DNA of 64,000 nucleotides, taken from contig NZ_CP017080.1 in the NCBI RefSeq assembly GCF_001645685.2, positions 2,036,001 through 2,100,000 on the forward strand, read 5' to 3'. Under the pieces are notes generated by a model, which saw only the letters and a program-made list of their open reading frames with translations, searched no databases and was not told the DNA's origin. This document shows, in pieces, positions 24,052 to 34,419 of this stretch. The position numbers were made by a program, and so were the translations under genes. Every line of letters begins with the position of its first letter. Position 1 is the first letter of the stretch. The stretch comes from Peribacillus muralis. GTDB lineage: Bacteria; Bacillota; Bacilli; Bacillales; DSM-1321.

Positions 24052-24071
24052 AATCTAAACGTTTACATTTT
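24052..24071 (+). promoter_or_regulatory. LacI-type operator O1 upstream of the deoxyribose operon
   Basis: The 20-mer AATCTAAACGTTTACATTTT has a perfect TAAACGTTTA core with the central CG step bound by LacI-family proteins. An identical 20-mer recurs 73 bp downstream. TTTACA within it could serve as -35. Confidence 0.8.
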
Positions 24072-24124: not shown

Positions 24125-24144
24125 AATCTAAACGTTTACATTTT
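24125..24144 (+). promoter_or_regulatory. LacI-type operator O2
   Basis: Identical to the 20-mer at 24052. Its centre is 73 bp from the first, about seven helical turns, which suits looping by a tetramer. It lies immediately before the ribosome site of the regulator gene, pointing to autoregulation. Confidence 0.8.
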
Positions 24145-24157
24145 GAGGTGTGAAAAA

Positions 24158-25180
24158 ATGGAATCCAAACCGAATATTCAGGATGTTGCAAATCTAGCAA
24201 ACGTTTCTATTGCCACGGTATCCCGGGTCATCAATAACCAAGGGGGAGTTCGTAAAGTAACGGAGGAAAGGATTCTTAAGGCAATTAAGGAACTGGGCTA
24301 TATCCGCAGTGCAGCTGCAAGGACCATGAAGCTAAAAGAAACGAATACGATCGGCGTCATTGTACCTGATATCAAGAATCCGTTCTTTCCGCTAGTAATG
24401 GCAGGAATCGAACAAAAAGCACGTGAAAAAGAGTATTTCACCATTTTAAGCAGTACGAATGAATCTCCCAAGATTGAAGAAGAAATCGTGAAAAATTTCA
24501 TTGAGCGTGGTGTGGATGGCGTGATCATCACAACGGCAAATGAAAACGGCGATCACCTAAAGCTTCTTGAAGAACAGGGAATTCCCGTAGTGGCGGTTGA
24601 CCGAAGCATAAAAAAATTGGAAGTGGATACGGTTCTTGTAGATAACAAAAAGGGTGCGTATCAGGCAGTTCAGCAATTGATCCTGCAGGGTCATGAAAAG
24701 ATTTCGATCATATGCGGCCCATTGAATACGACTCCTGGGCTGGAGCGGTACTTGGGCTATCAACAAGCCTTGGCAGATTACAAAATCGATCTGGATGACC
24801 GCTATGTCATTCAAGGTGATTTCGGGGAACAAAGTGGCTATCAGTGTACAGAGAAGCTTTTTGGGCTTGATGAGAAGCCGACTGCCATCTTTTCTTCCAA
24901 TAATATGATGACCATCGGCTGTATGAAGGCGCTCGAGGATTTAAACTGGAGGCTTGGCAGTGAGGTATCGTTCATCGGCTTTGATGATGTCGATATCGCA
25001 ACATTTTTGAACCCAAAGCTTAGTGTAGTGGCAAGGCCAATGAATTCCATTGGAGAGATTGCCTTTTTACTGTTGCATGAGCGGATCGGTTTAAAGGGGA
25101 ATCTTCCAAAACGTGAGTATTCATTGGCTCCTGAGCTTAAAATCAGGCAGTCTTGCCGGTTGGTGAACCAAACATTTTGA
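24158..25180 (+). CDS. LacI-family transcriptional regulator of the deoxyribose operon
   Basis: 340 aa from ATG 24158 (GAGGTG upstream). It has an N-terminal LacI helix-turn-helix (NIQDVANLANVSIATVSRVI), the hinge region with RSAAARTMK, then a periplasmic-binding-protein-like sensor domain. It is the first gene of a co-directional set with deoC, permease, DUF4432 and kinase, and two identical operators precede it. The likely ligand is deoxyribose or deoxyribose 5-phosphate (inference). In Salmonella the corresponding regulator, DeoQ, belongs to a different family. Confidence 0.9.
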   Translation: MESKPNIQDVANLANVSIATVSRVINNQGGVRKVTEERILKAIKELGYIRSAAARTMKLKETNTIGVIVPDIKNPFFPLVMAGIEQKAREKEYFTILSSTNESPKIEEEIVKNFIERGVDGVIITTANENGDHLKLLEEQGIPVVAVDRSIKKLEVDTVLVDNKKGAYQAVQQLILQGHEKISIICGPLNTTPGLERYLGYQQALADYKIDLDDRYVIQGDFGEQSGYQCTEKLFGLDEKPTAIFSSNNMMTIGCMKALEDLNWRLGSEVSFIGFDDVDIATFLNPKLSVVARPMNSIGEIAFLLLHERIGLKGNLPKREYSLAPELKIRQSCRLVNQTF

Positions 25181-25241: not shown

Positions 25242-25255
25242 TGAAAGCGCTTTAT
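25242..25255 (+). promoter_or_regulatory. cre-like site before deoC
   Basis: TGAAAGCGCTTTAT has a perfect AAAGCGCTTT centre and matches the CcpA cre pattern at 12 of 14 positions; only the final CA is missing. It lies about 30 bp before the deoC start, so catabolite repression of the operon is plausible. Confidence 0.5.
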
Positions 25256-25283: not shown

Positions 25284-25949
25284 ATGAACTTGGCAAAAAT
25301 GATCGACCATACCTCACTAAAGGCGGAAGCAACAAAAGAACAAATCATGGCTCTTTGTGATGAAGCAAAAGAATATGGATTTGCCTCTGTATGTGTAAAC
25401 CCAGTTTGGGTGAAAACGGCAGCAGAAAAAATTAAAGGAAGTGATGTGAAGGTTTGCACGGTAATCGGCTTTCCGCTCGGTACCTCGACGACTGTTATAA
25501 AAGCGATGGAAACAGAGAATGCCATTCAAAATGGAGCGCAAGAAGTGGATATGGTTTTAGCGATTGGGTTATTGAAATCTGGTGAACATGAGGAGGTGGA
25601 GGCTGACATACAGGCTGTTGTTGAGGCTGCTGGCACCAAGGCGCTTGTGAAAGTGATCATTGAAACTTCTTTGCTTACGGAGGAAGAAAAGATATCCGCC
25701 TGCGAACTGTCCCTTCGTGCAGGTGCCGACTTCGTGAAAACATCGACTGGATTCTCGACAGGTGGAGCAACGGTTGGGGATGTAGCATTAATGCGCAAGG
25801 TTGTAGGTGATAAGGCTGGCATAAAAGCATCCGGTGGAATTCGTGACTTGAAAGATTTGAAAGCGATGGCTGGGGCTGGCGCCACTCGTATAGGGGCAAG
25901 CTCCGGGGTGGCGATCATGAAGGGAGAAGCAGTCGAAGGCGAATACTGA
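25284..25949 (+). CDS. deoC: Deoxyribose-phosphate aldolase
   Basis: 221 aa TIM-barrel class I aldolase that splits 2-deoxyribose 5-phosphate into acetaldehyde and glyceraldehyde 3-phosphate. The Schiff-base K152 in FVKTSTGF, the proton-relay lysine in IKASGGIRD and D89 in EVDMV are all present. ATG 25284 follows GAGGAG. In nucleoside operons deoC accompanies nupC and pdp; here it accompanies a permease and a deoxyribokinase, so the substrate enters as free deoxyribose. Confidence 0.96.
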
Positions 25950-26003: not shown

Positions 26004-27350
26004 ATGAATAAACAAAACTTAATTCAGCTGTCAGATGGTTATTTGAATCGTACGCCTATTTTTCAGTTTATCCTGTTGTCTCTGCTATTCCCATTATGGG
26101 CGGTTGCCGCCAGTTTGAACGATATCCTGATTGCACAGTTCAAACATGTATTTGAGCTGACTGATTTTGCGAGTGCTTTAGTGCAGAGCGCATTTTATGG
26201 CGGGTATTTCCTGATTGCGATACCAGCTTCAATGGTCATTAAGAAAACGAATTATAAGTTTGCCATCATTACCGGATTGCTTTTTTATATTATAGGATGC
26301 TCGTTGTTTTACCCAGCTTCGCATATGGCTACGTATACGATGTTTTTATTCGCGATTTTCTCCATCGCGATCGGACTGGGTTTTCTTGAGACAGCGGCAA
26401 ATACATATAGTTCGATGATTGGGCCGCGCAAGTATGCAATCCTTCGCTTGAATATAAGCCAAACCTTCTATCCTATCGGTGCGATTTCAGGGATTTTATT
26501 AGGGAAATACCTTGTATTCCAGGAAGGTGCAAGCCTTGAGGCAAGGATGGCGACCATGTCCCCAGCGGAGGCACAGGCCTTTGGGCTGAAAATGCTTGAA
26601 AACACGCTGGAACCATACAGATATATGATTTTCGTCTTGATTGGGATCCTGATATTGTTCATTTTGACCAAGTTTCCATCATGTAAGCCGGAAATGAAGA
26701 TCAACAATGCTTCAGGGAAGTCGCCCAGTATCATGAAAACGCTTAAATACCTCGGTGGACACAAACGATTCCGCAAAGGAGTGGCCGCACAATTTTTATA
26801 CGTGGGGATGCAGGTAACGGTTTGGTCCTTTACGATTCGCCTTGCGCTCGATTTAAATCCCGACATTAACGAGCGTACCGCTTCTACTTTTATGGTATAT
26901 AGCTTCAGTGCATTTTTTGCAGGAAAGTTCATTGCCAATTTCTTGATGACCCGCTTTTCACCAGCTAAAGTATTGGTTAGTTACTCCATCATTGGTTCAG
27001 TTCTTCTTGCCTATGTGGCATTCGTGCCGAATATGTCAGCCGTTTACGCAGCCGTTGCGGTCAGTATGCTGTTCGGGCCGTGCTGGGCAACGATTTATGC
27101 AGAAACGCTTGACGTCATTCAAGATAAGAAATATACCGAAACGGCAGGAGCGATCCTCGTCATGGCCATTGTCGGAGGTGCATTTATCCCTGCGCTACAA
27201 GGGTTTGCATCTGATTACTTAGGTTCGATGCAACTGGCATTCCTTGTATCGATGGCATGCTTTATCTACGTTGGACTCTATTTCTTCGGTGAGATGAAAA
27301 CGGAAAAGGTTACGATCGACCCTGCAGAAAAGTCGGCATCATCGCTGTGA
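26004..27350 (+). CDS. deoP: FucP-family sugar:proton symporter, probable deoxyribose permease
   Basis: 448 aa, 12 helices, of the fucose-galactose-glucose (FGHS) branch of the MFS: LLFPLWAVAASLNDILIAQF at the N-terminus and the FLETAANTYSSMIGP helix. Salmonella DeoP belongs to the same branch and imports 2-deoxyribose. The gene lies 54 bp after deoC and before the DUF4432 and kinase genes, matching the Salmonella deoK-deoP-deoX content. The substrate is inferred from context. Confidence 0.85.
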   Translation: MNKQNLIQLSDGYLNRTPIFQFILLSLLFPLWAVAASLNDILIAQFKHVFELTDFASALVQSAFYGGYFLIAIPASMVIKKTNYKFAIITGLLFYIIGCSLFYPASHMATYTMFLFAIFSIAIGLGFLETAANTYSSMIGPRKYAILRLNISQTFYPIGAISGILLGKYLVFQEGASLEARMATMSPAEAQAFGLKMLENTLEPYRYMIFVLIGILILFILTKFPSCKPEMKINNASGKSPSIMKTLKYLGGHKRFRKGVAAQFLYVGMQVTVWSFTIRLALDLNPDINERTASTFMVYSFSAFFAGKFIANFLMTRFSPAKVLVSYSIIGSVLLAYVAFVPNMSAVYAAVAVSMLFGPCWATIYAETLDVIQDKKYTETAGAILVMAIVGGAFIPALQGFASDYLGSMQLAFLVSMACFIYVGLYFFGEMKTEKVTIDPAEKSASSL

Positions 27351-27425
27351 GAAACGGAACTTCGGCACGGTGCACATTTCAAATGCTGCACCCTTGTGCG
27401 AAAATCATGAGAAAGGGTGGAAGGA

Positions 27426-28439
27426 ATGAAGGGAATAATCGGGCTGCAACGGAATTATTTTAAAGAAAGCCGTACAGCATTTTTTACTAACGAAGAATTC
27501 AGTGTTACCTTATTCCGCTATCAATCAGGAATTGAAGCGATTGAGGTAACCAATTCAAGGGGCAGGATGGTGGTTCTTCCATACATGGGCCAGATGATTT
27601 GGGATTTGGAGTTTGACGGTGTAGATCTTAAAATGAAGAGTATGTTTGACCAGCCCAAAAAAGCTGATAGCGTCATAGATACATATGGTTGCTTTGCTTT
27701 CCATTCAGGGCTAATCAGCAATGGCTGTCCGGGAGCTGATGATGACCATGAAATGCATGGAGAAATGCCCTGTGCAGAGATGGACAGTGCTTGGCTGGAA
27801 ATAACCGATACGTCCGTGAAAATTTGTGGACGGACCGAATATATAAAAGGTTTCGGCCACCATTATCTAGCTTCTCCGAGTGTTGAAATGTTCAAAGCGA
27901 AAGGGTCGATTCAAATGACCATGGCTGTGAAAAATCTATCGGGCGAAGTGATGCCTCTACAGTATATGTGCCATACAAACTATGCTTACTTGGATAATGC
28001 CGAAATGAAGCAGAATATCCCGAACAGCGCTTTCAAGCTAAGGGGGTCGATTCCGAAGCATGTTAAACCGACCGATAAATGGCTGGATTACAATAAGAAA
28101 CTATTAAATGGACAGGAATCAATTAACGCATTAAACGATCCTGGAATGTATGATCCCGAAATCGTGTTTTTTGCAGATGAGCTGAATCTTTATCAGGAAG
28201 TAGCGGTATTCGAGATGGCTTCTCCTGAGGGAATCACGTTTTTCACCAGCTTTTCGACAGCGGAATTGAACTACGCCACAAGGTGGTTATTGCATAACGC
28301 CAATCAGCATGTTGCTTCATTCGTGCTGCCTGCGACATGCCGTCCAGAAGGTTTCAGCGCCGCAGAAAACGCAGGAACGTTGATGATGTTAAGCGCTGGG
28401 GAAGAGAGGAATTTCACGATTGTAACCGGAAAGAAATAA
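27426..28439 (+). CDS. deoX: DUF4432 aldose-epimerase-like protein (DeoX-like)
   Basis: 337 aa, galactose-mutarotase-like beta sandwich of the DUF4432 type (VVLPYMGQMIWDLEFDGVDL, then CPGADDDHEMHGEMP). It may interconvert deoxyribose anomers before phosphorylation, but this is not proven for the family. ATG 27426 is used rather than the in-frame GTG at 27417. It lies directly before the kinase, 13 bp apart, in the deoxyribose operon; a protein of this kind accompanies deoK and deoP in Salmonella, as I recall. Confidence 0.78.
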   Translation: MKGIIGLQRNYFKESRTAFFTNEEFSVTLFRYQSGIEAIEVTNSRGRMVVLPYMGQMIWDLEFDGVDLKMKSMFDQPKKADSVIDTYGCFAFHSGLISNGCPGADDDHEMHGEMPCAEMDSAWLEITDTSVKICGRTEYIKGFGHHYLASPSVEMFKAKGSIQMTMAVKNLSGEVMPLQYMCHTNYAYLDNAEMKQNIPNSAFKLRGSIPKHVKPTDKWLDYNKKLLNGQESINALNDPGMYDPEIVFFADELNLYQEVAVFEMASPEGITFFTSFSTAELNYATRWLLHNANQHVASFVLPATCRPEGFSAAENAGTLMMLSAGEERNFTIVTGKK

Positions 28440-28452
28440 GGAGGAATAATAA

Positions 28453-29373
28453 ATGGACATAGCGGTAATTGGATCAAATATGGTGGATTTGATCGCCTAC
28501 ATCGATGACATGCCGAAAGAAGGGGAAACACTTGAGGCACCGGATTTCAAGATAGGCTGCGGAGGCAAAGGTGCGAACCAAGCGGTTGCCGCTGCCAAAA
28601 TGGGCTCAAAGGTGATGATGATAACGAAGGTCGGGGATGATCTTTTTGCGGATAACACCATTCAAAATCTTGAAAGCCATGGAATCGATACGGAATTCAC
28701 CAGTAAAGTGACTGGCACATCAAGCGGTGTGGCACCGATTTTTGTCGATCAAGAATCAAAAAACCGCATCCTGATTATTAAAGGAGCAAACCAGCACTTG
28801 CTGCCGGCGGATGTCGACCGTGCCGCTGAAAAGCTTAAGAAAGCTTCCTTGATCGTTCTTCAACTTGAAATTCCGCTTCCGACCGTTTACCGTGCGATTG
28901 ATTTTGGGTGCGAACATAATATTCCTGTCATCTTAAATCCTGCCCCTGCATCAAAAGAGCTTGATTTTGATTATGTATGCAAAAGTGACTTTTTTATTCC
29001 GAATGAGAGCGAACTGGAGATTTTAACGGGCATGCCTATTGCTACAGATGAACAAATTAAGGAAGCGGCGTCCATTCTACTGAATAAGGGCGTTAAAAAT
29101 GTAATCGTAACGATGGGAAACCGTGGCGTCATGTGGGTAACGAAGGAGAAAAACGTAAAGGTTCGGTCAGAAAAAGTGGCAGCGGTCGATACAACCGGAG
29201 CGGGAGATGCCTTCATAGGCTGCTTTGCCCACTTCATTGTGAAAAATGGTGACGTGCTCATGTCCATAAAAAAGGCTGCAGCCTTTGCCGGATTAAGTGT
29301 CACAAAAAGGGGAACACAGTCGTCTTATCCAACGAGAGAGGAATTAGAGGTGTTCATAACCTCGCGAACATGA
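28453..29373 (+). CDS. deoK: Deoxyribokinase (PfkB/ribokinase family)
   Basis: 306 aa PfkB-fold kinase with GCGGKGANQAVAAAKMG near the N-terminus and the anion-hole/catalytic base DTTGAGDAF. Residues 7-12 read GSNMVD. Met10 is the residue reported to set deoxyribose over ribose specificity in Salmonella DeoK (Asn14 in ribokinase), and the length (306 aa) is also the same. It phosphorylates 2-deoxyribose to the 5-phosphate, the substrate of DeoC. Last gene of the operon, with a strong terminator. Confidence 0.92.
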   Translation: MDIAVIGSNMVDLIAYIDDMPKEGETLEAPDFKIGCGGKGANQAVAAAKMGSKVMMITKVGDDLFADNTIQNLESHGIDTEFTSKVTGTSSGVAPIFVDQESKNRILIIKGANQHLLPADVDRAAEKLKKASLIVLQLEIPLPTVYRAIDFGCEHNIPVILNPAPASKELDFDYVCKSDFFIPNESELEILTGMPIATDEQIKEAASILLNKGVKNVIVTMGNRGVMWVTKEKNVKVRSEKVAAVDTTGAGDAFIGCFAHFIVKNGDVLMSIKKAAAFAGLSVTKRGTQSSYPTREELEVFITSRT

Positions 29374-29390
29374 AACAATAGATTGGGAGT

Positions 29391-29428
29391 ACAGGTGGCA
29401 TGGTTTTTGCCACCTGTCTTATTTTTTA
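29391..29428 (+). terminator. Terminator of the deoxyribose operon
   Basis: ACAGGTGGCA (29391-29400) pairs with TGCCACCTGT (29408-29417), followed by T-rich sequence. Confidence 0.92.
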
Positions 29429-29607
29429 TATGATTAATCAACTACATGAAGGAGCACTTCTAGGATTTTTTTATGATTGTACAAGCCATTTTCACTTAAA
29501 TCCATAGCATGTTAGTAAAGAAATACTTGATGAAAGGTTTCATTCACTTTCTGGGTTATATGAATTTCTTCATTACGACCTTCACCCACATATACAGTAA
29601 AAAGGAG

Positions 29608-29618
29608 ACGTTTACATT
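29608..29618 (+). promoter_or_regulatory. Half-operator match before the kinase-like gene
   Basis: ACGTTTACATT is identical to the right-hand part of both LacI-type operators and lies immediately before the ATG, as at the second operator. The left half is absent. Confidence 0.35.
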
Positions 29619-30191
29619 ATGTTGCTAAATAACAATGGAAATGAAAAAGGCCAACAGCTGAATAACGGTTCCATGCTGCTACGGGAAGAGATGCAAGCCA
29701 TTGACTCTTGGATAGCAAAAATGGGGAAACACCATTTTTTTGACACGACAGCACAAAGGATGATTTCCGTTACAACCACACTGAACCTCCAGTATGAAAT
29801 AGTGGGGCATGGCTTAAATCGAATCGTTTATGACCTGAATAATGGCTTTATATTGAAAGTTGCCCTGTCCGAAGTGGGACTGATGGCCAACGCAAATGAA
29901 GCTTATATCTATAACCATTGCAGGGAGGAAGTTAGAAAGTATATATGTCCAGTTAGTGAATTCGGTTCTGGCTGGATCATCATGAAGAAAATGGACACGA
30001 GCGTGCGGCATGCAGTCATTGATTATACGAAGCTGATCAAACTCGAGTTTATATTCCTGAAATACGGCATGCTCCCCATAGATTTGCGAATCGCAAATGT
30101 CGCCTTTTCCGAAGAAAATAAAATGGTGGTCATCGATTATGGCCTATTCACGATGGATCTCAAAAGCCCTGTGCTGCGCTGGTTCGTGTGA
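29619..30191 (+). CDS. Small protein-kinase-like protein
   Basis: 190 aa. I do not recognise a named family, but kinase-fold landmarks occur in the right order: a glycine-rich turn VGHGLNRIVYD, a lysine in FILKVAL, a glutamate in NEAYIYNH, a catalytic-loop-like PIDLRIANV (Asp and Asn spaced as in DxxxxN), and a metal-binding IDYGLF. It is about half the size of a normal kinase domain and lacks the C-terminal lobe extension. ATG 29619 follows AAAGGAG. It stands alone between the deoxyribose operon and the sulfur cluster. Confidence 0.6.
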   Translation: MLLNNNGNEKGQQLNNGSMLLREEMQAIDSWIAKMGKHHFFDTTAQRMISVTTTLNLQYEIVGHGLNRIVYDLNNGFILKVALSEVGLMANANEAYIYNHCREEVRKYICPVSEFGSGWIIMKKMDTSVRHAVIDYTKLIKLEFIFLKYGMLPIDLRIANVAFSEENKMVVIDYGLFTMDLKSPVLRWFV

Positions 30192-30503: not shown

Positions 30504-30983
30504 ATGACTGAGCAGAAAAAAACGACAATCATCTTATTTAGTGGTGATTATGATAAGACAATGGCAGCTTACATTATTGCAAATGGTGCCGCAGCCTACG
30601 ATCATGAAGTGACCATCTTCCATACATTCTGGGGATTGAATGCATTGAGGAAGGAAGAGCCGTTGAAGGTGAAAAAAGGGCGGCTTGAGAAAATGTTTGC
30701 CAAAATGATGCCGCGTGGTGCGGATAAGATGGGTTTATCCCAATTGAATTTTGCTGGGATGGGACCTAAAATGATCAAACATGTGATGAAAAAACATAAT
30801 GCGATGTCACTGCCGCATTTAATCGAGCTGGCTCAAGAACAAGAGGTGAAACTAATTGCCTGTACGATGACAATGGATTTGCTCGGGTTGCAACAAGAGG
30901 AATTATTGGATGGAATCGAGTATGCAGGTGTGGCAGCTTATTTAGCTGAAGCTGAGGATGGGAATGTAAACTTATTCATTTAA
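30504..30983 (+). CDS. yrkE: DsrE/DsrF-like sulfur-transfer protein (YrkE)
   Basis: 159 aa, DsrE-like fold: TTIILFSGDYDKTMAAYIIA at the N-terminus and a conserved CTMTMDLLG cysteine stretch near residue 120, the likely persulfide carrier. It matches B. subtilis YrkE in size and in position at the head of a yrkE-yrkF-yrkH-yrkI-yrkJ series. It probably receives or hands on sulfane sulfur in the cytoplasm. Expression is from the CstR-type promoter just upstream. Confidence 0.87.
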   Translation: MTEQKKTTIILFSGDYDKTMAAYIIANGAAAYDHEVTIFHTFWGLNALRKEEPLKVKKGRLEKMFAKMMPRGADKMGLSQLNFAGMGPKMIKHVMKKHNAMSLPHLIELAQEQEVKLIACTMTMDLLGLQQEELLDGIEYAGVAAYLAEAEDGNVNLFI

Positions 30984-31121
30984 GGGTTTCCATACGCGTA
31001 TAAAAAAGGGAGCAATCCGTTGATGTCCGTACTACGGATGAATATGAGCATAACAAAAGGGAAGAGCTATCGATGTAATAGCGCCAAGAGTTCCTGTCGT
31101 TAATTAGAGGAGGTATAAAAA

Positions 31122-31418
31122 ATGAGAGAAATATTGACCAATGAAGTGAATGATCTAATGAATGAGAACAAGCCAGTACATGTCATCGATGTGCGTGAAG
31201 TGGATGAGGTGAAGGCAGGGAAGATTCCCGGTGCGATGAACATCCCATTGGCTTTAGTGGAATTTACCATGCAAGACCTGGATAAATCAAAAGAGTACAT
31301 CTTAGTCTGTCGTTCGGGGGGCAGAAGTTCAAGGGCAGCACTGCTACTAGAGGAACGTGGATATAAAGTGCTGAACATGGTGGGGGGCATGGATGAATGG
31401 AAGGGTGCAACGGAATGA
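31122..31418 (+). CDS. Single-domain rhodanese
   Basis: 98 aa rhodanese with the active-site loop CRSGGRS (C63) and the closing GGMDEWKG helix. It moves sulfane sulfur between persulfides, thiosulfate and thiol acceptors. ATG 31122 has GAGGAGG nine bases upstream. This stand-alone rhodanese lies between the YrkE- and YrkF-like genes. Confidence 0.92.
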   Translation: MREILTNEVNDLMNENKPVHVIDVREVDEVKAGKIPGAMNIPLALVEFTMQDLDKSKEYILVCRSGGRSSRAALLLEERGYKVLNMVGGMDEWKGATE

Positions 31419-31470
31419 ATTTTTTGACCTTTTATATACCCCGACCCCTATTAACTGAACGAGGAGGAAA

Positions 31471-32046
31471 ATGATGATTACAACTAATTCCGTATGTGAT
31501 GCAAAAGGTTTGGCCTGTCCTATGCCCATCGTAAAAACGAAAAAAGCGATGAACAATCTGGAAGCTGGAGGCGTCCTTGAGGTTCAAGCGACTGATAAAG
31601 GATCAACGGCCGATTTGAAGGCATGGGCCGAAAGTACAGGTCATCAATATTTGGGAACGGTGGAAGAAGGGATGGTTTTGAAACATTATCTTCGCAAAGC
31701 TAGTGTTGAAGATCAACAAGAACAAATCCATGAAAAGATCATTACAAATGAAATGCTTCTGAAAAAAATCGAAGCAAAGAAAAACACGATCATCCTTGAT
31801 GTAAGAGAAAGGGCAGAGTATGCTTTCAATCATATCCCAACGGCTATATCCTTTCCAATAGGTGAGTTGGAACAACGTTTGGAGGAACTGGATAAAGAAG
31901 CTGAGCTTTTTGTCATTTGCCGTACTGGCAGCCGTAGTGACCTTGCTGCCCAAAAACTAACGGCAGCAGGATTTAAAGAAGTCATCAATGTTTTACCTGG
32001 CATGAACCAGTGGAGTGGTCCTTCACAAGAATCAATTCAAAAGTAA
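31471..32046 (+). CDS. yrkF: TusA-rhodanese fusion protein (YrkF)
   Basis: 191 aa with two domains: an N-terminal TusA domain (CPMPI, C16; residues 1-75) and a C-terminal rhodanese domain (residues 85-185) with C150 in VICRTGSRS. The fusion lets a persulfide pass directly from rhodanese to TusA. An imperfect half-site (TATACCCC, 31426-31433) lies before the gene. The layout is the same as B. subtilis YrkF. Confidence 0.92.
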   Translation: MMITTNSVCDAKGLACPMPIVKTKKAMNNLEAGGVLEVQATDKGSTADLKAWAESTGHQYLGTVEEGMVLKHYLRKASVEDQQEQIHEKIITNEMLLKKIEAKKNTIILDVRERAEYAFNHIPTAISFPIGELEQRLEELDKEAELFVICRTGSRSDLAAQKLTAAGFKEVINVLPGMNQWSGPSQESIQK

Positions 32047-32177
32047 TCGGACATTTAGTTGTGGAATGGCCTACTTCTTTACGATTGAGTGCATTTGTGT
32101 CAATCGTTTTCATGGAAAAAAGAACATTCGTCAACTCCCCGGACGCTAATGGAGGATAAAAAAATTTAATGTAAAAT

Positions 32178-32193
32178 ATACTATAGGGGGTAT
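32178..32193 (+). promoter_or_regulatory. Second CstR/CsoR-type operator
   Basis: ATACTATAGGGGGTAT keeps the ATAC/GTAT arms and the G-rich right half of the site at 30461 and overlaps a TATACT -10-like hexamer. It precedes the yrkH-like gene, suggesting a second promoter of the same regulon. Confidence 0.6.
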
Positions 32194-32198
32194 TTTAA

Positions 32199-33326
32199 AT
32201 GACCTTTAAATCGATGACTGCAGCGGAGGTTGCAAGGAAGGTAATCAATGAAGATGAATTATTCATTTTGGATGTTAGAAATGGAACGGACTTTTTCGAT
32301 TGGAAAATTGAAGGGGAAAAGTTTGAACTCCTTAATATTCCATACTTTGATTTATTGGAAGGTGTGGAAGGAATAATCGAACGAATTCCGGAAAACAAGG
32401 ACATTCTGGTGGTTTGTGCTAAGGAAGGCTCATCAATAATGGTGGCTGAGATGCTGTCTGAGGCTGGGCTTCATGTTGCTTATTTAAAGGGGGGCATGAA
32501 AGCGTGGAGTGAGCACTTGGAACCGGTGAAGATCGGAACATTGACTGATGGCGGAGAAATTTATCAATTTGTTCGTCACGGCAAAGGGTGTTTATCTTAC
32601 CTGGTCGTATCCAATGGCGAAGCTGCCGTAATTGATTCCACAAGAATGATCGATGTTTATCTCGATTTTGCCGAAAGCATAGGCGCAAAAATCAAGCATG
32701 TGTTTGATACACATCTACATGCTGACCATATTTCTGGGGGACGAAATATAGCAAAAAAGACAAATGCAACTTACTGGCTGCCAACAAAAGATGCAACGGA
32801 AGTAACGTTTGATTACGAGCCATTGGAGAGCGGAACAGTGATTACGATCGGTCATACCGCGATTGATATCCATGCCTTATATTCTCCAGGCCACACGATA
32901 GGCTCGACATCATTCGTCATCGATGAAAAATACCTGCTTTCGGGAGACATCCTATTCATTGGCTCCATCGGCAGACCGGACTTAGCAGGCTTGGGTGATG
33001 ATTGGGTAGTCGATTTGAGAGAAACGCTATATATACGTTATAGAGAACTATCAGAAGAGTTAATTGTATTACCCTCACATTTCATGATTCATGAAGAATT
33101 GAATGATGATGGTAGTGTCGCCAAAAAGCTAGGCTATTTATTTGCTGAGAATCATGGATTGAACATAACAGATGAGTCAGAGTTCAGAGCATTGGTAACG
33201 GGTAATTTACCGCCTCAACCAAATGCTTATCAAGAAATTCGAGAAACTAATATGGGCAAAATCCAACCGAATGATGAAAAACAGCGCGAAATGGAAATTG
33301 GACCAAATCGCTGTGCCGTTCGTTAA
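32199..33326 (+). CDS. yrkH: Rhodanese-metallo-beta-lactamase protein, persulfide dioxygenase-like (YrkH)
   Basis: 375 aa. Residues 1-105 form a rhodanese domain with C73 in VCAKEGSS. Residues 115-335 form an ETHE1/CstB-like metallo-beta-lactamase domain with [11 protein letters not shown] (H172, H174, D176, H177), SPGHTIGS and LPSHF metal ligands. Such proteins oxidise glutathione, bacillithiol or CoA persulfide to sulfite. The domain order (rhodanese first) differs from staphylococcal CstB and matches B. subtilis YrkH. It is the detoxifying step of the cluster. Confidence 0.9.
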
Positions 33327-33359
33327 GTAAAAATGATACTTGATAAGGAGAGATATGGG

Positions 33360-33587
33360 ATGATATCAGATAAAGTATTGGATGCCACAGGGCTTGCTTG
33401 CCCAATGCCGATCATTAAAACGAAAAAAGCGATGAATGAAATGGTGCAGGGGCACGTGCTGGAGATACATGTAACTGATAAAGGAGCTAAAGCCGACTTG
33501 GCCGCTTGGTCAAAATCAGGCGGTCATGAATTAATCGATACAGCGATGGATAATGATATACTGAAAGTTTGGATCAAAAAAGGTTAA
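33360..33587 (+). CDS. yrkI: TusA-like sulfur carrier (YrkI)
   Basis: 75 aa with the CPMPI motif (C14). ATG 33360 follows AAGGAGAG, so I reject the in-frame start at 33333. It is nearly the same as the N-terminal domain of the TusA-rhodanese fusion (shared CPMPI and KTKKAMN), indicating duplication within the cluster. It is distinct from the TusA beside the YeeE transporter, which has CPFPL. Confidence 0.92.
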   Translation: MISDKVLDATGLACPMPIIKTKKAMNEMVQGHVLEIHVTDKGAKADLAAWSKSGGHELIDTAMDNDILKVWIKKG

Positions 33588-33639
33588 AGAAGTGGAGGGG
33601 ACCTTGTAGGTTCCCTTATTTTTAAGGGAGGCAAGTAAT

Positions 33640-34419
33640 ATGGATATCGCTTTTATCATGACCATCTTTCTGATTGGATTCATAGGTTCATACATGTCCG
33701 GTATGCTCGGTATTGGCGGTGCGATCATTAATTACCCATTGCTTCTATTCGTTCCTCCCATTTTCGGTTTTGGGGCATTTAGTGCACATGATGTAACAGG
33801 TATAAGTGCTGTGCAAGTTTTGTTTGCTTCCATTGGAGGGGTTTGGAGCTATCGGAAAAGCGGACATGTAAATAAAACGCTCATTCTTTATATGGGAAGC
33901 AGCGTGTTGATCGGAAGCATGTTCGGAAGTTTCGGATCACGAGCGATGTCGGAAAACGGAGTGAATATTGTCTATGGTGTTTTGGCGGTGGTCGCTGCCT
34001 TCATGATGGTCATTCCGAGAAAAAGTATGGATGTTGTTACTGAGGAACATGTGAGCTTTAACAAATGGCTTGCGGCCGTCCTTGCTTTTGTCGTTGGTTT
34101 AGGGGCAGGAATAGTCGGGGCAGGAGGCGGTTTTTTATTAGTCCCGATCATGCTCATCGTGTTAAGGATCCCGACCAGGGTCACCATCGCGTCTTCACTG
34201 GCAATCACGCTCATCTCATCCATCGGTGCGACGGCAGGGAAAATCACGACTGGACAAGTTGCTTTCTATCCCGCCCTGATCATCATTGCAGCTAGTTTAA
34301 TAGCAGCACCACTTGGGGCGATGGCTGGCAAAAAAATGAATGTAAAAGTCCTGCAAGCCATACTGGCTCTCTTGATCTTAGCGACGGCTGTGAAAACCTG
34401 GCTGCAAATCATGTCATGA
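33640..34419 (+). CDS. yrkJ: TauE/SafE sulfite or sulfur-anion exporter (YrkJ)
   Basis: 259 aa, about eight helices, with the TauE/SafE twin motif: [15 protein letters not shown] in the N-terminal half and [17 protein letters not shown] in the C-terminal half. It likely exports sulfite or thiosulfate made by the dioxygenase and rhodanese upstream. Last gene of the sulfane-sulfur cluster; a terminator follows. Confidence 0.9.

Follow-up and report, generated by a model that had tools for sequence, protein, structure and literature searches.

A probable operon for free 2-deoxy-D-ribose in Peribacillus muralis, with an RbsR-like repressor and an operator common to ribose operons

In this study, we have analyzed a 64,000-nucleotide stretch of Peribacillus muralis DNA (here called the window) and conclude, with a probability of roughly 0.8, that five of its genes form a complete kinase/aldolase operon for free 2-deoxy-D-ribose, equipped with a LacI-family, RbsR-like repressor on two operators and with a cre-like site. 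The pathway is of a known kind; what is added is a regulatory variant, namely an RbsR-like repressor whose operator is common to ribose and deoxyribose operons. The genes and sites, in window coordinates, are as follows.

24052..24068, + strand: operator copy 1, AATCTAAACGTTTACAT, an imperfect palindrome centered on CG; exact, and conserved 5' of orthologous regulators
24125..24141, + strand: operator copy 2, the identical 17 bases, exact, 73 bp downstream of copy 1
24158..25180, + strand: LacI-family, RbsR-like repressor (PF00356); the ATG at 24158, behind GAGGTG, is a likelier start than the TTG at 24143 given in the open reading frame list
25242..25255, + strand: cre-like site TGAAAGCGCTTTAT in the regulator-deoC gap, a probable CcpA target
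25284..25949, + strand: deoC, deoxyribose-phosphate aldolase, 221 amino acids (TIGR00126)
26004..27350, + strand: FucP-type major facilitator permease, DeoP-like, 448 amino acids (TIGR00885; 67% identical to the permease of E. coli locus L024; a relative of PDB 3o7q)
27426..28439, + strand: DUF4432 protein, DeoX-like, 337 amino acids, galactose-mutarotase fold; the ATG at 27426 is likelier than the GTG at 27417 of the open reading frame list
28453..29373, + strand: deoK-like PfkB sugar kinase, 306 amino acids, GSNMVD (TIGR02152; kinase tree)
29391..29417, + strand: probable intrinsic terminator, 10-pair stem and T-run, by consensus match only

The sequence-only reading of this region described five codirectional genes, and this held: all five reading frames run uninterrupted on the + strand between 24158 and 29373, and the curated models agree. 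The scores were 65.7 bits for the regulator (LacI, PF00356; cutoff, 27), 294.5 bits for DeoC (TIGR00126; cutoff, 117.3), 313.5 bits for the permease (FucP, TIGR00885; cutoff, 280.4), 58.4 bits for the DUF4432 protein (PF14486; cutoff, 32.5), and 376.5 bits for the kinase (ribokinase, TIGR02152; cutoff, 299.65). The same five genes, with order and strand kept, are found in another Peribacillus locus (L010), two Bacillus loci (L011 and L012), Metabacillus (L013), Shimazuella (L014), and a Peribacillus plasmid (L025); this recurrence argues that the block is not a product of chance. Since the kinase passes the NCBI ribokinase model and the permease passes the L-fucose permease model, TIGR02152 and TIGR00885 do not separate deoxyribokinase from ribokinase or deoxyribose permease from fucose permease.

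A tree of PfkB kinases groups the window kinase with the enterobacterial deoxyribose-locus kinase and apart from RbsK. It lies in a 35-row clade (support, 100/99; 66 rows in the tree) that includes the locus kinases of E. coli, Proteus, Pantoea, Vibrio, Burkholderia, and Agrobacterium; E. coli RbsK, S. aureus RbsK, human ribokinase, and the genome's own RbsK fall outside the clade, each on a long branch that the tree places only with uncertainty. The set started at 66 rows, from which seven contig duplicates (L052, L059, L061, L062, L064, L066, and L067) and two truncated kinases (L016 and L098_6247), nine rows in all, were dropped, and the addition of six rbs-type kinases and three PDB rows brought it back to 66. 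L015 and L058, although nearly identical, each kept a row, the distant partial matches L022 and L023 were never in the set, and the truncated locus L016/L059 is absent from both the tree and the table of neighboring genes. That table records tblastn matches at 1e-8 within 7 kb; the locus context is shortened by contig ends in several rows (to 4.3 kb in L108), and the decayed deoC copies of L009 and L065 were scored as present. A kinase of the deoxyribokinase clade and DeoC, the pair by which the kinase/aldolase pathway is recognized, thus occur together in one genome, and several bacillar orthologues of the kinase are already named Deoxyribokinase in UniRef. The best match with a species name is a kinase from Peribacillus muralis, at 98% identity, in agreement with a Peribacillus origin of the window.

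Deoxyribose catabolism and a parallel with Salmonella deoK-deoP-deoX had also been proposed, and both are well supported by the clade membership of the kinase and by its neighbors. The locus of E. coli strain 200164 (L024), which we take to be a deoQ-deoK-deoP-deoX locus and whose record labels read DeoR family, rbsK, fucP, and aldose 1-epimerase family, encodes in one run a kinase 66%, a FucP-type permease 67%, and a DUF4432 protein 53% identical to those of the window; the Salmonella DUF4432 protein (P0220) is 57% identical. In L024, the regulator is of the DeoR family and divergently oriented, and the 12.6 kb shown contains no annotated deoC, whereas the window has a LacI-type regulator and deoC within the run, in the order regulator-deoC-permease-DUF4432-kinase. 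The Burkholderia cluster L026 is likewise similar in its kinase (57%), permease (53%), DUF4432 protein (48%), and deoC product (55%); however, its DeoR-type regulator lies on the other strand, between the DUF4432 gene and deoC. Within the genus of the window, L050 carries the permease-DUF4432-kinase module beside a SorC-type DeoR (NF053881, 498.6 bits; cutoff, 420). One enzyme module is therefore found with three kinds of regulator: DeoR-family proteins (L024 and L026), a SorC-type DeoR (L050), and the LacI-type protein of the window.

Published genetic work is in keeping with this assignment. S. Typhimurium no longer grows on deoxyribose once deoK is deleted (PMC13432705), and Price et al. 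(2019; PMC6365646) describe fitness losses on deoxyribose for the kinase/aldolase genes of Burkholderia other than that of L026, whose kinase may be orthologous to the one in L026. The dra-nupC-pdp operon of B. subtilis, as described in PMC11229326, resembles the window in placing deoC (dra) under a local repressor, DeoR, which answers to deoxyribose 5-phosphate, but differs in its SorC-type regulator, its nucleoside transporter and phosphorylase, and its lack of a sugar kinase in the named operon. In literature searches we recognized no account of a bacillar deoxyribose operon under a LacI-type regulator; PMC4052901 does not contain the term deoC, and deoxyribose appears 0 times in the listed extract, which does not imply that such an operon is unpublished.

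The kinase has 306 amino acids and reads GSNMVD at residues 7 to 12, with Met at position 10, just as the sequence-only reading had it. That reading treated Met10 as a deoxyribokinase signature; in mutagenesis of Salmonella DeoK by Tourneux et al. in 2000, Met10 reportedly favors deoxyribose over ribose. The importance of the position was upheld, but the residue proved a poor marker alone, since it is shared by human ribokinase and by kinases outside the GSNM group. Across the 66 rows, column 10 holds Met in 38, Asn in 19, Val in 8, and Ser in 1, and deoC lies within 7 kb in 20 of the 38 Met rows (37 with a locus; two of the 20 copies, in L009 and L065, are decayed), in none of the 19 Asn rows (17 with a locus), and in 1 of the 8 Val rows. 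Thirty-two rows carry the extended motif GSNM[VM]D, and 31 of these have deoC or a DUF4432 gene within 7 kb (L054 is the exception), and both Met10 and this motif are invariant in 29/29 close homologues chosen among the 120 matches listed. Six rows have Met without GSNM[VM]D, namely human ribokinase, L106, L110, L111, L112, and L113; Met10 is therefore not diagnostic.

At the seven ribose-contact positions of E. coli RbsK (as listed in PMC9604405), six residues are identical in the window kinase, and Asn14, which corresponds to Met10, is the sole difference; human ribokinase equals the window kinase at all seven, Met included. That the residue at RbsK position 14, or DeoK position 10, probably matters for sugar use is independently supported by E. 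coli selected on deoxyribose, in which 15 of the 16 sequenced colonies carried RbsK N14D or N14S (PMC6452873). E. coli ribokinase, with its Asn14, is stated to use deoxyribose well, as it does ribose (PMC9604405). This, together with the six Met rows listed above, rules out Met10 as a stand-alone marker, and the data caution that Met10 by itself should not be used to name a kinase a deoxyribokinase. Within the DeoK clade, the kinases of L110 and L111 have Met and lie beside rbsD, and their sister L098, also rbsD linked, has Asn; these three operons may represent a return to ribose use.

It could be argued from these data that the operon serves mainly ribose, or both pentoses, with the kinase acting as a broad ribokinase and deoC clearing a by-product or serving nucleoside breakdown. 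The regulator clade and the operator (see below) belong to rbsD operons, the NCBIfam model names the kinase a ribokinase, its contact residues are those of human ribokinase, and kinases of its own clade (L098, L110, and L111) sit with rbsD; in addition, ribose is a substrate of Salmonella DeoK too, and S. Typhimurium could grow on ribose with deoK alone (PMC13432705). The same paper, however, gives a kcat/Km of Salmonella DeoK for ribose that is approximately 100-fold below that of RbsK (0.1 versus 11.2). Moreover, the genome of the window carries an rbs operon apart from this one (L069), whose regulator and kinase are only 30% and 38% identical to those of the window (RbsD was assigned by model, the regulator and kinase by tblastn, and the ABC genes by eye), so ribose need not depend on the window operon. 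No rbsD is present in the window operon, where a DUF4432 gene takes its place; deoC accompanies about half of the Met rows and none of the Asn rows; and the same module also occurs with other, deoxyribose-type regulators. We regard a ribose operon as unlikely and favor free deoxyribose as the probable substrate.

The aldolase gene bears on a further alternative, in which the operon is chiefly for deoxyribonucleoside salvage, the central enzyme being the deoC product and the kinase playing a lesser part. This would agree with the presence of deoC in the operon and of deoB elsewhere in the genome, but among the five genes there is no nucleoside phosphorylase, phosphopentomutase, or nucleoside transporter. 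In two Peribacillus simplex relatives, furthermore, the operon copy of deoC has decayed (L065:5148-5568 and L009:5121-5490), with in-frame stops in L065 and the inner part missing in both, while the regulator, permease, DUF4432 protein, and kinase match over their full length at 90 to 96% identity to those of the window; both genomes have a stop-free deoC elsewhere. Because the other four genes stay full length where deoC has decayed, it is the free-sugar part that is kept, and nucleoside salvage appears very improbable as the main role. The operon had been called complete, and complete it is; its deoC nevertheless need not be essential: a deoC without internal stops was found, in the operon or elsewhere, in 18/18 other kinase-bearing genomes checked, and the window genome itself has a second copy.

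The permease, for its part, passes the fucose model, and DeoC enzymes accept related aldehydes; both points would fit a pathway for a different sugar, for instance a 2-deoxy or methyl pentose, that enters through a permease of the fucose kind and whose phosphate DeoC would cleave. We give this reading little credence, given that the kinase and permease are as close as reported above to those of an E. coli locus of the DeoK/DeoP/DeoX kind and that the five genes include neither an isomerase nor a second aldolase. A sequence search of the DUF4432 protein against the PDB gave 0 matches at an E value of 0.01, so a structure model was used, and this model has a galactose-mutarotase fold, in addition to the PF14486 match above cutoff. 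DUF4432 and RbsD are mutually exclusive in the kinase set, occurring in 29 and 19 of the 66 rows, with none carrying both, and an exchange of RbsD for DeoX is likely. On the strength of its modeled fold, the DUF4432 protein (DeoX) is a candidate pentose mutarotase acting on deoxyribose; one Fictibacillus relative is already named DeoX.

The regulator had been described as LacI-type and not DeoQ. It is indeed a LacI-family protein and not one of the DeoR/GlpR family, nor does it reach the SorC-type DeoR model NF053881; the description was incomplete, however, in that the protein is RbsR-like, although it scores below the curated RbsR cutoff (255 versus 382 bits; NF047341). By sequence comparison, it belongs to the same clade and has the same operator as the regulators of rbsD operons. 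In the regulator tree, from which L103 was omitted as too short, the 15 deoK-linked regulators form one clade (100/98) within a 22-row clade (100/100) that also holds six rbsD-operon regulators and L102. The tree does not fix the root of the 22-row clade, and either sugar may have come first.

The operator follows the regulator closely. All 16 loci scanned have at least one exact copy, and in 13 of them two copies stand 72 to 75 bp apart upstream of the regulator; none was found in 16/16 scanned deoK loci that lack this regulator. Among 397 genomes of the order, the exact 17-bp operator occurs in 15 (the reversed-pattern control gave 0), of which nine carry deoK operons and six carry ribose operons, and all 29/29 sites adjoin a regulator orthologue. 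In the six ribose-type genomes (G012, G110, G169, G321, G322, and G341), the regulator is accompanied by rbsD, genes for an ABC transporter, and a GSYV-type kinase, which together look like a ribose operon. Conversely, 5 of the 14 kinase-bearing genomes in this sample (kinase at an E value of 1e-90) are without the operator (G039, G082, G141, G163, and G298), and they have no regulator orthologue near the kinase. A search for a wider regulon in the window's own genome returned only the two operon sites at up to 1 mismatch in the 14-base core, a looseness at which the reversed control gave 3 matches. Part of the operator, ACGTTTACAT, is also seen at 29604-29618, just 5' of a 190-amino-acid open reading frame at 29619; this frame follows the operon in several Peribacillus genomes and has no Pfam family match at an E value of 0.01.

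Comparison with the ribose operons L164 to L169 sharpens this picture. Their regulators are 51 to 71% identical to that of the window and they share the exact 17-bp operator; in contrast, they have RbsD where the window has DUF4432, an RbsA/RbsB-like ABC transporter where it has a FucP-type permease, a GSYV-type kinase, and no deoC match within 7 kb (the RbsA, RbsB, and RbsC-like genes of L069 and L164 to L168 were named by eye from the starts of the reading frames). L102, from another genome of the phylum, resembles the window in its regulator (61%), its operator, and the deoC behind its kinase, but has an RbsD match, a ribose-type ABC transporter, and a GSYVVD kinase; it is possibly a mixed ribose/deoxyribose operon. 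The binding proteins of L102 and L169 both score below the RbsB cutoff, RbsB being the best match of the former. L102, with deoC in its operon, had first suggested that the regulator is a dedicated deoxyribose sensor, a reading that was withdrawn when the operator search reached rbsD operons.

Since the window has its repressor and 17-bp operator in common with rbsD-ABC-kinase ribose operons of related bacteria, it appears that one enzyme cassette replaced another while the repressor/operator pair stayed, possibly with ribose as the earlier sugar. The motifs NPFF, SSNN, and GFDD, which we take to mark the sugar pocket by analogy with ribose-binding proteins, hardly differ between the deoK and rbsD regulator groups; 12 of 334 ungapped columns are disjoint between the groups, none of them in these motifs. 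A bolder proposal, which we offer tentatively and hold to be possible rather than probable, is that the exchange beneath a retained ribose repressor and its exact operator took in all of the enzymes, with DeoX in place of RbsD, the FucP-type permease in place of RbsABC, DeoK in place of RbsK, and deoC added. The repressor might then still answer to ribose, which would be a gratuitous inducer, and DeoX would do for deoxyribose what the pyranase RbsD does for ribose.

It can be envisioned that the repressor acts on its own gene and on the operon through the two identical operators, that a pentose releases it, and that the cre-like site adds catabolite repression. In 15 of the 16 loci, L102 being the exception, the gap that separates the regulator from the following gene contains a cre-like match of at least 11/14 bases; the window site matches at 12/14, a match equaled in 1 of 5,000 mononucleotide shuffles of the 103-bp gap (the window gap only), and we infer that CcpA may act there. 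The terminator scan as a whole gave 2 terminator-like sites versus 2.3 in shuffles, and the promoter scan gave 6 sites versus 4.2 (standard deviation, 2.1), no excess over chance.

The kinase is patchily distributed: it is found in 6/36 genomes of the genus, including the window's own, in 7/43 when other genera of the family are added, and in 14/397 genomes of the order. In a sample of the phylum, 28/398 genomes have matches at an E value of 1e-60; the majority of these resemble ribokinases, and the identity values leave a gap from 52% down to 45%. On the Peribacillus plasmid L025 the operon is present in full, with a regulator that clusters with the Metabacillus idriensis one (99/90), a grouping that points to transfer. 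At L043 and L059 (G298), a DeoK-like kinase match begins at residue 36 or 37 with a stop flagged, and the 16 kb looked at hold no partner genes; it appears to be a decaying remnant. Separately, window positions 30504-34419 hold a sulfur-handling cluster that encodes a DsrE-like protein, a rhodanese, a TusA-rhodanese, a metallo-beta-lactamase-fold protein with a rhodanese domain (presumably persulfide dioxygenase-like), and a TauE exporter.

In conclusion, the enzymes of this operon are known, so it mostly extends a known map. The DUF4432 protein gains from it a testable role as a pentose mutarotase. One clade of LacI-type repressors with a fixed operator stands in Bacilli at the head of ribose as well as deoxyribose operons, and these operons provide a natural experiment in which effector specificity changes, or does not, while DNA recognition stays the same.
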